Under the pieces are notes generated by a model. It was not told the DNA's origin, did not search any database, and was given only the letters and a program-made list of their open reading frames with translations. Of a stretch of 64,000 nt of DNA, positions 43,400 through 62,740 are shown piece by piece. Each line of letters starts with the position of its first letter. The stretch's first letter is position 1. The position numbers and the translations under genes are program-made. This DNA is from an uncultured Pelagibacteraceae bacterium (GTDB taxonomy: Bacteria; Pseudomonadota; Alphaproteobacteria; Pelagibacterales; Pelagibacteraceae), in the NCBI GenBank assembly GCA_902585365.1, contig CACIDF010000002.1, forward strand, positions 1-64,000. The letters are read 5' to 3'.

Positions 43400-43983
43400 T
43401 TATGCTCCTGTAGATAACTTTTAATTTTTGTTATCGGTAGTCCCATTATGGTATTTTTATCACCCTTTATTTCACTAAATAATTTTTTTCCTTCACCCTC
43501 TATTTGATACACATTATATGCGTAAAGATTCTTGTCAGATATTTTGGATAAATAATTTTTTAACTCGCTTTCATTAAAATCTTTCATAACTAATTCTGCT
43601 TTACCAGTATAATTCCATATCATGCTCCCCTTTTTAGAAATACAAACTGAACTAATTAAAAAATGACTTTTGCCACTCATTTTTTTCAAAATATTAAAGG
43701 CTTCTTCTCGCGATTTTGGTTTTGAAATTATTGTACCATTTAAATCTATTACACTGTCCGCACCAAGAACTAGCTCATTCGGGTTTTTGTTACTTATTTT
43801 ATTGGCTTTTAATTCTGCAAGATTTTTGGATATTATTTCTGGCGTTGCACCCTCCTTTAAAAGCGCTTCCTTAATAACATCTTCGTCAACTTTGGATGGT
43901 TCAACATGACAAGGAATGCCATTCTCCAATAAAATTTTTTTTCTAACCTCACTTTTTGAAGCTAATATTATCTTATTCATCAT
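43396..43983 (-). CDS. Maf-family nucleotide pyrophosphatase
   Basis: IILASKSEVRKKILLENGIP; VLGADSVIDLNG; SKPKSREEAFNILKKMSGKSH. Confidence 0.95.
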   Translation of the reverse strand: MMNKIILASKSEVRKKILLENGIPCHVEPSKVDEDVIKEALLKEGATPEIISKNLAELKANKISNKNPNELVLGADSVIDLNGTIISKPKSREEAFNILKKMSGKSHFLISSVCISKKGSMIWNYTGKAELVMKDFNESELKNYLSKISDKNLYAYNVYQIEGEGKKLFSEIKGDKNTIMGLPITKIKSYLQEHK

Positions 43984-44797
43984 GGTTAAATATATCGTGA
44001 ATTTTAAGTATTGAGGCTGCAGTTTCCTCTACTGATTTTCTCGTAACATCTATAGTTGGCCAGTTATATTTTTGAAAAAGTTTTTTTGAAACTTCTATTT
44101 CATTTTTAATTTTTTCAAAATTTATGTAATTTTTATTCTCATTCTCTTTTATAGATTGCATTCTATTTTTTCTTAAGTCTACCAACCTGTCTGGTTCTGC
44201 CGTTAAACCTACAACGCAAGTTAAATCTGGTTTCTCTTTTAAAAATTCTGGAACTGATTGTTCATTTACTAATGGTATATTGGAAATTTTCATACCTTTA
44301 TTTGCTAAATAAATTGAAGTAGGCGTTTTACTTGTTCTACTAACTCCCAATAAAATAATATCAGATTTATCTATATCATCTAATGAATTTCCATCATCAT
44401 GATTCATAGTGAATTGTATAGCTTCAATTTTCTTATAATAATCTTCATTCATAACATGTTGTCCGCTAGGAATGTGACTTGCTTCTTGATTTAATAATTT
44501 TGAAAAAGTTAAAATAAGATCTCCTAATACACCAAAACAAGGAATCTTTTTTTTATTACATTCTGTTGATAAAAATTGAGCAAGTTTATTGTCTACTATT
44601 GTATACAAAAAAATAGAATTTTTGCTTTGGGCAGAATTTTCTATTATTTTTAAAATTTGATTTTCAGTTCTTGTAAAAGAGAAGTAGTGAGTTTTATAAC
44701 TGAAATTTTTAAATTGGGCTTTAATGGCTAAGAATATTCTTTCCAGTGTCTCACCGGTTGAATCTGAGACTAAATAAATTTCATATGTATTACTCAT
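43973..44797 (-). CDS. ppsR: Kinase/pyrophosphorylase (DUF299, PpsR/PDRP family)
   Basis: YLVSDSTGETLERI; ILLGVSRTSKTPTSIYLANKGMKISNIPLV. Confidence 0.95.
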   Translation of the reverse strand: MSNTYEIYLVSDSTGETLERIFLAIKAQFKNFSYKTHYFSFTRTENQILKIIENSAQSKNSIFLYTIVDNKLAQFLSTECNKKKIPCFGVLGDLILTFSKLLNQEASHIPSGQHVMNEDYYKKIEAIQFTMNHDDGNSLDDIDKSDIILLGVSRTSKTPTSIYLANKGMKISNIPLVNEQSVPEFLKEKPDLTCVVGLTAEPDRLVDLRKNRMQSIKENENKNYINFEKIKNEIEVSKKLFQKYNWPTIDVTRKSVEETAASILKIHDIFNHDE

Positions 44798-45081
44798 GTA
44801 TAATTAATAAAGAATTTTTGTATTAATGTTAAATTATAAACAAACTTACAAATTCTAGCATCCAAAATCAAAAAAAAGCTTTTTAATAACATTATAAAAC
44901 ATGTTTATAACCAATATACCGTTTTTTGAATAAAATTATATTATTCAGGATCATCCTTATTTTTTAAGAATTATTAAACAAATTAAATGTGAAAAAGATG
45001 TTATAAAAGTGTTAGAAAATAGTAATATTCAATATTAACATCTCTAATACAAATAATATAAGTATTACTTAATCTATTAAT
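44798..45081 (+). other. Putative chromosome replication origin region (ppsR-hemE intergenic)
   Basis: 284-bp AT-rich non-coding gap between divergent ppsR and hemE; repeated TTATAAACA-type 9-mers; inverted repeats. Confidence 0.6.
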
Positions 45082-46083
45082 ATGACTGTTTTGCAGGATT
45101 GTATAAATAAAAAATTGAACATTAATTGTATATGGTTAATGAGACAAGCAGGTAGGTATTTACCAGAATTTAGGGAAATAAGATCTAAAAATCAGGATTT
45201 TGTAAAATTATGTTTAAATGAAAATTTATCATCTGAAATTACAGTTCAGCCATTAAGAAGATTTGATATAGATGCAGCAATAATATTTTCCGATATTTTG
45301 TTAGTGCCTTTTGCCTTAGGTCAACCAGTAAAATTTAAAAAAGATTTTGGACCATTATTAGGTAATATAGATTTTAACAAAATGTTGAATATAAATGAAA
45401 TGCATTTTACAGATAAATTAAAACCCGTCTATAATGCTATAAAAAAAACAAGAGATAAAGAAGAACTAAAAAATAAAGATCTAATAGGATTTGTTGGGGG
45501 ACCATGGACGATCTTAATTTACATGTTAAACCAAAAATCACCTAAAAACGAAGACATTGAACTTAATTTAAAAGATAAAAAATTTATAGAGGATTTATTA
45601 AAAGTTATTGTAAGGTTTCTTAAAATTCATATTAATAATCAAATTGAAAATGGAGCAACGATTATTCAAATATTTGATAGTTGGGCTGGGCTTTTAAATA
45701 AAAAAGATTACGATAAATATATATATAGTCCCACCAAGGACTTAGTCAATTTTGTTAAGTCTAAAAAAACACCAGTCATATGCTTCCCCAAAGGAATTAA
45801 TGACTACAAAAGTTATGTAAGTTTAGTTAAACCAGATGTAATCAGTATAGATTATGATGTTGACCCAAAGAAAATTTCAGAAAGTATAGATATAACAGTG
45901 CAAGGAGGATTAAATCCTAATTTTTTAATTGGCGATAAAGAAGAGCTCAAAGTTAATGTTAAAAAATATTTAGATATATTCAAGGATAAACCATATATTT
46001 TTAATCTTGGTCACGGCGTACTACCAAATACCGATCCAGGTATGGTAGATTATTTAGTTAAATTTGTTAAAAATTACTCATGA
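45082..46083 (+). CDS. hemE: Uroporphyrinogen decarboxylase
   Basis: IWLMRQAGRYLPEFREIR; AAIIFSDILLVPFALG; FVGGPWTILIYML; NLGHGVLPNTDP. Confidence 0.97.
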   Translation: MTVLQDCINKKLNINCIWLMRQAGRYLPEFREIRSKNQDFVKLCLNENLSSEITVQPLRRFDIDAAIIFSDILLVPFALGQPVKFKKDFGPLLGNIDFNKMLNINEMHFTDKLKPVYNAIKKTRDKEELKNKDLIGFVGGPWTILIYMLNQKSPKNEDIELNLKDKKFIEDLLKVIVRFLKIHINNQIENGATIIQIFDSWAGLLNKKDYDKYIYSPTKDLVNFVKSKKTPVICFPKGINDYKSYVSLVKPDVISIDYDVDPKKISESIDITVQGGLNPNFLIGDKEELKVNVKKYLDIFKDKPYIFNLGHGVLPNTDPGMVDYLVKFVKNYS

Positions 46084-52211: not shown

Positions 52212-52843
52212 TCGAATCGAATCTTAAAAAATATTCTGAATTAGAAACATTAAACGTTTCACGTGAAACATTTCCTGCCTTAGAAGAGTTTAGATCATTA
52301 TTGTTGAGTGAAAACAAAAAAATAAACTTAATAAGCAAATCAACCGAGAAAGACTCAATAAAAAGACATATAATAGACTCAGCGCAAATAATTGATATTA
52401 TTGATAAAAATACTAAAACTTGCCTAGATATAGGCTCAGGTTCTGGCCTTCCAGGCGTAGTTCTTGCAATTATCTTAAAAAAAAAGGGATCAAAAATAAA
52501 ATTCAAACTTTATGAGAAAAGTATGAAGAAAAGCAATTTTTTAAAAAAAATGATCAAGCACTTCGAATTAAATGCTGAGGTAAGGCAAAAGAATATTTTT
52601 GAAGAAAGGGAATTAGAAGCAGACATAGTAGTAGCTCGAGCTTTTAAACCACTGCAAACAATATTAGAATTAATAAACAAAAATTTTTCTCATTATAACA
52701 GTTTAATACTTTTCTTAGGAAAGAGTGGCAGGGAAAATATTAATGAATGTTTAAAATTATGGAAGTTTGATTATGAAATTTTAAAAAGTTTAACAGACGT
52801 AAATTCAGTCATTGTAAAAATAAATAATTTAAGAAAAACATGA
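52208..52843 (+). CDS. rsmG: 16S rRNA (guanine527-N7)-methyltransferase
   Basis: [38 protein letters not shown]. Confidence 0.95.
52255..52270 (+). promoter_or_regulatory. parS: parS centromere site inside rsmG
   Basis: cgtttcacgtgaaaca, 15/16 match to canonical TGTTTCACGTGAAACA; adjacent to parA/parB. Confidence 0.93.
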
Positions 52844-53640
52844 AAGAAAAAATTATATCAATAATAAATCAAAAGGGTGGGGTTGGGAAAACTACGACAG
52901 TAATAAATTTAGCGGCAGGACTTTCTTTGAATAACAAAAAAGTTTTGGTAATTGACTTAGATCCCCAAGGAAATGCTACAACGGGTTTAGGATTATCTAA
53001 TATAGATCAAACATCTAATTCAATTTATCAAGTGTTGATCGGAACAAAAAAAATTGATGAAGCAATTTCGAAAACAAATTTTTCTAACCTGGATATAATC
53101 ACTTCAAATGTGGATTTATCTGGATTGGAAGTGGAAACAGCAGATGATGGTCGTAGAGCTTATATTCTAAAGGAGAAATTGACCGCATATTTAAATGATT
53201 CTAGAGCTTCATATGATTATGTGCTTATAGACTGCCCTCCTTCCCTAAGTTTGTTAACTGTAATGGCCTTGGTAGCCTCTCAATCTCTTTTAGTCCCTCT
53301 TCAAACTGAATTCTTTGCTTTAGAGGGCATAACTCAACTGATCAAAACTATCGATAGGATTAAACTTGGATTAAATTCAGAACTTACCATTAGAGGAATA
53401 CTTCTGACTATGTATGATAAGAGAAATAAGCTTTCTGGAGAAGTTGAAACTGAAGCAAGAAATTATTTTAAAGATAAAGTATACAAAAATGTTGTTCCAA
53501 GGAATGTAAGATTGTCCGAAGCCCCTTCACACGGTATGCCAGTTATATTTTATGATAAGGCTTGTCCAGGAAGTAAATCATATATCAATTTTACAGAGGA
53601 ATTTTTAGCGCAAGAAGAAAGTTTCGAGACAGCAGCATGA
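52840..53640 (+). CDS. parA: Chromosome partitioning ATPase ParA/Soj
   Basis: IISIINQKGGVGKTTTVINLAAGLS; DLDPQGNATTGLG; RNVRLSEAPSHG. Confidence 0.98.
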   Translation: MKEKIISIINQKGGVGKTTTVINLAAGLSLNNKKVLVIDLDPQGNATTGLGLSNIDQTSNSIYQVLIGTKKIDEAISKTNFSNLDIITSNVDLSGLEVETADDGRRAYILKEKLTAYLNDSRASYDYVLIDCPPSLSLLTVMALVASQSLLVPLQTEFFALEGITQLIKTIDRIKLGLNSELTIRGILLTMYDKRNKLSGEVETEARNYFKDKVYKNVVPRNVRLSEAPSHGMPVIFYDKACPGSKSYINFTEEFLAQEESFETAA

Positions 53641-54479
53641 TAGGATTTAAAAATAAAAAAGGACTTGGTAGGGGCTTATCATCTTTAATTGGAGAAGGTA
53701 AATTTGTAGAGAGCACTAAAGCTAATATAAGTGATCTTAAAAGAAATAAATACCAACCGAGAAAAAAGTTTGATGAAATAAGCTTAGAGGAATTAACGGA
53801 GTCTATAAAATCAAGAGGAATTATTCAGCCAATAATAGTTAGAAACTCAAATACAGACATTAAATACGAAATTATTGCAGGTGAAAGAAGATGGCTTGCT
53901 GCACAGAGAGCTGGGTTACATGAAGTACCAATTGTTGTTATAGAGGCAGATGATAAAAAAGCATTAGAGTTTGGAATAGTTGAAAATGTTCAAAGACATG
54001 ACTTGAATGCAATAGAAGAAGCAGAAGGTTATAAAAGACTTATTGATGAATTTTCTTATGATCAAGAACAAGTTGCCAAATTTATAGGGAAAAGCCGAAG
54101 CCACATAACAAATTGTTTGAGATTGTTAAGCTTACCTGTTGAACTTATTGAATTTGTTAAAGATAACAAAATATCCCCAGGCCATGCAAAAATCCTGGTT
54201 GGTCTTGAAAATTCTATTTTTATTGCAAAAAAAATAATTTCAAAGAGATTGTCTGTTAGACAAGCTGAAACTTTAGTTAAAGCTTATAAAGCTCCTAGTA
54301 AAAAACATATAAGCAAAAAAGATCCTAACATAAAGGTTTTAGAGCATAAACTAATGGAAAAAATTGGTATGAATATTGAGATAAAGAATAAAAAAAATAA
54401 TAAAGGATCAATAACTTTTCATTATAATGAATTAGATCAATTAAATAGAATTATAGAGTCTATAAAAAAGAGTTACTAG
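53637..54479 (+). CDS. parB: Chromosome partitioning protein ParB/Spo0J
   Basis: KKGLGRGLSSLIGE; KYQPRKKFDEISLEEL; GERRWLAAQRAG; VENVQRHDLNAIEEA. Confidence 0.98.
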   Translation: MIGFKNKKGLGRGLSSLIGEGKFVESTKANISDLKRNKYQPRKKFDEISLEELTESIKSRGIIQPIIVRNSNTDIKYEIIAGERRWLAAQRAGLHEVPIVVIEADDKKALEFGIVENVQRHDLNAIEEAEGYKRLIDEFSYDQEQVAKFIGKSRSHITNCLRLLSLPVELIEFVKDNKISPGHAKILVGLENSIFIAKKIISKRLSVRQAETLVKAYKAPSKKHISKKDPNIKVLEHKLMEKIGMNIEIKNKKNNKGSITFHYNELDQLNRIIESIKKSY

Positions 54480-62039: not shown

Positions 62040-62640
62040 ATGCATTCGCAAAAGTTGCATATTTTAAATATACCAGAATTAGATAAAATTATTATAGAAA
62101 TCAGAGATTATCTTAATTACGAGATTAATAACTTCACTGAAAAAAAGGAATTGATAAAAAAAATCGATGAAGACAGCAAATTTTTAGAAAATTCAATAAT
62201 TATTGTTAATCAGAAAGACTTTTTTTCATTAAAAAACAAAACTAATGAAAAACAAATTTATTGTATTACAAAATTTCCAATAAAAATCTCTAATTTATTC
62301 GATCAATTAAATGCAAGATTAATACAACAAAATTACTCAGTTCAATCAAATATTAATATAAACAAATATATATTAGATATTAATTCTAGAATGTTAAAAA
62401 AAATCAGATAAAGAATTAAAATTAACTGAACGAGAAATTGATACTATTTTATTTCTTAAAAATGAAAATAAACCAGTTAATGTGGATATTCTTCAAAAAA
62501 AGGTTTGGAAATATGGTCAAGATTTAGAAACCCATACAGTTGAGACACATATTTATAGATTAAGAAAAAAAATCAAAGACACATTCAACGATGTCTCTTT
62601 TATAGAAAGTAAAAAGGATGGATATATAATTAATGAGTAA
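62040..62640 (+). pseudogene. OmpR-type winged-helix response regulator split by a +1 frame change at an A8 run (62396-62403)
   Basis: Frame 0 (62040..62411) ends YILDINSRMLKKIR*; frame +1 continues KKSDKELKLTEREIDTILFLKNENKPVNVDILQKKVWKYGQDLETHTVETHIYRLRKKIKDTFNDVSFIESKKDGYIINE*. Confidence 0.8.
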
Positions 62641-62740
62641 GAAAAATCCTCTTAAGAGAGACCTATTTACCAAAAAATATAAACCTAGAATTATTAAACC
62701 AAAAAAAGGAAAAGGTAGTTTTAAAAGAAAAAAAAATTGA
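62633..62740 (+). CDS. Small basic ArfA-like protein (35 aa), not in the supplied ORF track
   Basis: MSKKNPLKRDLFTKKYKPRIIKPKKGKGSFKRKKN*; LF...KKGKGSF.RK resembles alternative ribosome-rescue factor A. Confidence 0.6.
   Translation: MSKKNPLKRDLFTKKYKPRIIKPKKGKGSFKRKKN

Follow-up and report, generated by a model that had tools for sequence, protein, structure and literature searches.

Where replication of the SAR11 chromosome begins is the question raised by a short AT-rich gap between two divergent genes of an uncultured member of the Pelagibacteraceae. SAR11 bacteria rank among the most numerous cells of the ocean. In the open literature searched, with subscription papers and predicted-origin databases outside the scope, we found no description of a SAR11 origin. 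The window (the whole stretch of 64,000 nucleotides that was analyzed) is part of a 124,745 bp contig, C2, in a genome of 897 kb that comprises 43 contigs and is 74% complete; those relatives of its HemE that bear a name belong to the Pelagibacteraceae. In the ORF list, ppsR (43973..44797, minus strand; COG1806/DUF299, the RP001 homologue; PF03618, 5.8e-89) and hemE (45082..46083, plus strand; PF01208, 3.6e-85) are divergent and enclose a gap of exactly 284 bp (44798..45081) with 16.9% GC (the ppsR-hemE gap). Under a 60-aa ORF criterion only one gap in the window is longer, and its own duplex instability stands at the 99.75th percentile of the window. The initial annotation had proposed an origin here from the length and AT-richness of this non-coding gap, the divergent gene arrays leaving it and three DnaA-box-like motifs. 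The first two observations were reproduced, with the orientations as it gave them and with family searches of the two flanking genes confirming PpsR and HemE. It had also stated that the Caulobacter and Rickettsia origins lie between hemE and the RP001 homologue, and that RP001 belongs to the DUF299/ppsR family; both statements agree with the literature, where RP001 is COG1806, i.e. DUF299, and where Cori and the Rickettsia origins occupy this position (PMC1914354). We conclude that the interval 44798..45081 is very probably the oriC of the SAR11 (Pelagibacteraceae) chromosome, with DnaA presumably acting on an array of boxes in it. The computed support comprises the conserved length of the gap, the conserved slots and the clustering of the boxes, a switch in strand bias in relatives, the proximity of parS and the persistence of the gap in the absence of either flanking gene.

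Searches with HemE and PpsR recovered 59 SAR11 loci with the divergent pair, in which the homologous gap is near-constant in size (264-289 bp). When k-mers in these gaps were counted without any prior motif, the top enriched 9-mer was TTATTAACA, with 98 copies versus 4.2 expected and a presence in 52 of the 59 gaps; TTATTCACA (28 versus 0.6 expected) and TTATAAACA (31 versus 4.1 expected) are likewise enriched. The boxes recur at characteristic distances from ppsR, namely about 9 (-), 85 (+), 95 (+), 105 (-), 189 (-), 200 (-), 211 (-) and 233 (+), with steps of 9-11 bp within clusters, i.e. about one helical turn. The conservation of such 9-mers among relatives, which the initial annotation had anticipated, is thus borne out by boxes at fixed slots across the 59 gaps. 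Between genomes, one and the same slot may hold TTATTAACA, TTATCCACA, TTATTCACA or TTATAAACA, and TTATCCACA is itself the top 9-mer in 37 homologous gaps of other alphaproteobacteria (13 copies versus 0.09 expected). Since TTATCCACA leads elsewhere and interchanges with the SAR11 spellings at the same slots, the natural reading is that these slots are predicted DnaA boxes in which the CC core has been replaced by TA. The predicted box of the clade is then TTATTAACA / TTATTCACA, with the TTATAAACA of the window as a putative further drift. A conserved motif of the AAGCTTCA type is also seen between the two box clusters in 25 of the 59 gaps (L016, L024, L027 and others), and is absent in the window genome.

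Alignment allows the slots to be located in the window's own gap. The first cluster consists of slot 85 (44883..44891, plus strand), which reads TTAATAACA for the clade consensus TTATTAACA (exact TTATTAACA in 30 of 59 genomes, TTATCCACA in two); slot 95 (44892..44901, plus), a 10-mer TTATAAAACA for the clade's TTATTAAACA; and slot 105 (44902..44910, minus), which is TTATAAACA, or TGTTTATAA on the forward strand, and is TTATTAACA in some other genomes. The second cluster consists of three degenerate slots on the minus strand: slot 189 (44988..44996; TTTTTCACA for the clade's TTATTAACA, 8.3 bits), slot 200 (44999..45007; TTTATAACA, 11 bp from its neighbours) and slot 211 (45010..45018; TTTCTAACA). 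It is followed by slot 233 (45032..45040, plus; ATATTAACA, 9.4 bits), which holds the clade's TTATTCACA in 23 of 59 genomes. Slot 9 is unrecognizable, i.e. lost, in the window's own genome, whose boxes are weaker than those of the clade, and an extra TTATAAACA (44834..44842, plus) occurs only in its closest relatives (L010-L012, at an offset of 36-37). All three motifs of the initial annotation, at 44834-44842 (plus), 44892-44901 and 44902-44910, are present and two of them fall in conserved slots; as an account of the whole array they were incomplete, as there are about seven slots and some five weaker sites had been missed. Similarly, its relaxed AT-only DnaA box stands as a relaxed, AT-rich spelling but not as a literally AT-only one, position 8 staying C.

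With a box matrix whose training set consisted of other SAR11 genomes, the window's own clade being left out, the gap ranks first among the 290-bp stretches of the window (54.6 bits versus 24.0 for the runner-up). It contains six sites of at least 7 bits versus a mean of 1.0 in dinucleotide shuffles, none of 2000 shuffles reaching six. The 9-mer TTATAAACA is common by itself (43 copies in 897 kb), and TTATNNACA shows no enrichment across the entire window; what stands out is the clustering of boxes, single copies of TTATAAACA not being rare.

As the gap parts two divergent genes, where AT-rich promoters are expected, it could alternatively be a mere promoter region of ppsR and hemE, with the 9-mers acting as transcription-factor sites. 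Such sites would, however, have to accommodate slots that accept TTATCCACA and TTATTCACA, both classical DnaA-box spellings, as well as the mapping of the skew switch to this gap (see below), and the two neighbours have each been lost from it in nature. In genus g2, represented by two complete genomes, 577-648 kb separate hemE from ppsR, and the boxes nevertheless remain in the ppsR-rho gap, where three exact copies of TTATAAACA lie within 221 bp, the sole such triple in either genome. Motif polarity in one of these genomes (G001), among 100 of the 106 places listed, agrees best with the ppsR-rho gap, being co-oriented in 69 of 100, versus 56 for dnaA and 36 for the moved hemE. In family f2 (L234-L242) ppsR was not detected, and maf and hemE are still separated by a gap of similar length: 271-281 bp in eight of nine loci. 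The ninth has 203 bp, its hemE ORF beginning farther upstream. These f2 gaps have fewer boxes with a spelling nearer TTATCCACA, the box excess not being significant in three of the eight gaps tested. Persistence of the element when either neighbour is gone fits an origin and not a promoter region, and we regard the promoter reading as very improbable.

These rearranged loci present some further features. The distant hemE of the two g2 genomes (G001 and G007; L223, L224) is only about 35% identical to SAR11 HemE, a divergence which suggests that it was replaced by a different copy in g2. The maf-hemE gap of f2 contains a conserved CACCTGTTGA/TCAACAGGTG element that resembles two facing DnaA boxes. 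In a 97%-complete genome of the window's genus, hemE matches in two pieces with stops (G058:C5:73513-74509), and it is likewise in two pieces at G142:C2:55178-56153.

The other location to be weighed is dnaA, whose distance from hemE or ppsR is 62-72 kb in complete genomes and 68 kb, on the same contig, in the window's genome. The true origin might be close to dnaA, 62-70 kb to the right, or at some other place no more than about 50 kb off, the ppsR-hemE boxes then being a titration or regulatory cluster. The complete relative G003 (1.2 Mb), with its ppsR-hemE gap at 66.8 kb, was read whole. Its raw cumulative GC skew has a maximum at 674-677 kb, opposite the gap. The minimum, which is broad, falls at 98 kb; this point is 31 kb away from the gap, with hemE (67 kb) on one side and dnaA (130 kb) on the other, and favours such a displaced origin. 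Raw cumulative skew was discarded as an origin locator, being too coarse; as gene orientation dominates it, gene strand was entered as a covariate in a model of third-position skew. The best GC3 origin in G003 is then at 65 kb, and the support interval around it is broad (30-150 kb). In the three relatives from the same genus as the window (G003, G011 and G020), the combined GC3+AT3 score around hemE peaks at -10 kb, with 69 versus a permutation maximum of 14.7 and about 42 at dnaA; the bootstrap interval of this peak is wide (-16 to +42 kb), its upper end counting in favour of an origin towards dnaA. In G009, which belongs to a separate genus, the score peaks at -4 kb with 20.9 versus 2.6 at dnaA. 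Thus, the skew minimum expected at the gap by the initial annotation is displaced in the raw curve, and strand correction gives a switch within about 4-10 kb of the gap in relatives. In the window's own contig, which extends just 45 kb to the left of the gap, the gap is without a skew signal (-0.37), and the best peak, a weak one, is at -18 kb.

The strand-corrected skew is thus strongly against dnaA, and the region upstream of dnaA has no boxes in nearly all genomes checked (that of G009 was not covered) and one 10-mer each, with no cluster, in the two g2 genomes. By contrast, the ppsR-hemE gap is the densest and strongest box cluster in the whole G003 genome, with no other of comparable strength, a rank obtained with a matrix whose training set included the gaps of the genomes so ranked (G003, G011, G020) and found again for G003 with an untrained consensus. 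An origin at dnaA was rejected on the strand-corrected skew and the lack of an upstream box cluster, and the broader proposal of a displaced origin with a titration cluster at ppsR-hemE is likewise very improbable. The placement of oriC between ppsR and hemE is supported by the conserved slots together with the strand-corrected skew in relatives. When G003 was searched for a dif site resembling that of E. coli, the best match was 21/28, not distinguished from chance.

Segregation functions are encoded close to the gap. A parS-like site, CGTTTCACGTGAAACA (52255..52270, plus strand; one mismatch, the single one in the window versus 0.02 expected), lies inside rsmG, 7.2 kb to the right of the gap and beside the parA-parB segregation genes, named from sequence (52840..54479, plus; ORFs 52840-53640 and 53637-54479). 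The whole of G003 has only one such site, 8.0 kb from hemE. One site each was also seen in G020 (7.2 kb from hemE), in G011 (9.3 kb) and in G009 (17 kb off, on the other side).

In an alignment to the E. coli domain in 1j1v, the SAR11 DnaA protein keeps the box-contact signatures RRSR..RPRQ and RDHTTV, with GGRDHTT changed to SNRDHTT in the recognition region in the window's genus. We infer that SAR11 DnaA binds the spellings described above. It would occupy an array of 9/10-bp boxes in the gap: a cluster of two forward boxes and one reverse box 9-10 bp apart (44883-44910), and a second of three reverse boxes 11 bp apart (44988-45018), followed by a forward box at 45032. The phasing of the boxes would favour a DnaA-ATP filament, leading to opening of the very AT-rich DNA in the gap, after which the helicase would be loaded and forks would proceed in both directions. 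The putative melting site is a candidate unwinding element of uncertain position, the least stable 80-mer of the gap (45002..45081), whose instability reaches the 99.88th percentile of the window. It lies near hemE here, whereas in G003 the lowest stability is found between the two box clusters.

No CtrA protein was found in 11 complete or near-complete genomes, the best score being 148 bits versus a cut-off of 350 in a curated model that was built for one CtrA group and is passed by one control genome. CtrA sites (TTAA-N7-TTAA) in the SAR11 gaps show no excess (20 versus 15.2 +- 3.8 expected). As no CtrA was detected, SAR11 is unlikely to use CtrA control of the Caulobacter kind, which raises the question of its initiation timing. 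Some accepted hemE-COG1806 origins also have few or no CtrA sites (PMC1914354), and hence the missing CtrA features lower the match to Cori rather than the case for an origin. An IHF consensus scan gave eight sites versus 11.2 expected, with three HU/IHF-family genes per genome. GANTC sites show no excess in the SAR11 gaps and are rather depleted; a supposed absence of CcrM was dropped from consideration, a homologue having been reported in SAR11 (PMC3973325). A possible synthesis is that SAR11 DnaA and its boxes co-evolved to an AT-shifted site (TTATTAACA / TTATAAACA, with A for C at position 6), perhaps in connection with the change from GGRDHTT to SNRDHTT in the window's genus, and that the origin is CtrA-independent and timed by DnaA alone; we see the chances of this proposal being correct as evenly balanced.

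Among known systems, the gap resembles Cori of Caulobacter crescentus in its flanking genes, an AT content above that of the genome and several DnaA boxes (PMC1914354). Of the features of the Cori type it displays the hemE/COG1806 flanks, the densest box cluster (in the SAR11 spelling), high AT with low stability and, in relatives, the skew shift. Cori is longer (404 bp versus about 280 bp for the SAR11 gap), and its boxes are TGATCCACA G-boxes and TCCCCA W-boxes (PMC4285127), whereas those of SAR11 are TTATTAACA / TTATAAACA; furthermore, the Cori type has CtrA control, in contrast to SAR11 with neither an excess of CtrA sites nor a detected CtrA protein. The Rickettsia origins share the flanks and the roughly 82% AT of the window gap, but measure 383-396 bp and were found in a published scan with the consensus TTATNCACA and CtrA sites (PMC1914354). 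The SAR11 boxes, mostly having A at position 6, are missed by that consensus, and the window gap contains no exact TTATNCACA; the AT-shifted boxes thus explain why TTATNCACA scans miss the SAR11 origin. In E. coli oriC, oppositely oriented box arrays comparable to those seen here are the described filament scaffold (PMC4285127); it differs in location, and the window gap lacks a TTATCCACA anchor and is 68 kb from dnaA. Thus, the location is the one expected from known alphaproteobacteria, while the boxes are spelt differently, the length is compact and constant, and CtrA features are missing. With a firm SAR11 origin, metagenomic peak-to-trough coverage could be anchored, and origin-based plasmids would have a target in bacteria that are difficult to manipulate. 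The fixed slots that accept either a CC or a TA core also present a test case for co-drift of an initiator and its sites under AT pressure.

Finally, the only longer gap in the window, 62412-62740, is no true intergenic stretch but the frameshifted end of a gene. A short DNA-binding protein of the OmpR type, lacking a normal receiver domain, is encoded there (62041-62700) with a frameshift near 62410, the N-terminal 123 aa being in one frame and the Trans_reg_C part in another. Relatives of this gene lie about 17-20 kb from hemE in complete genomes (e.g. G003:85195, G011:355104, G020:927917), and their presence there indicates that the apparent gap is part of the OmpR-type gene.
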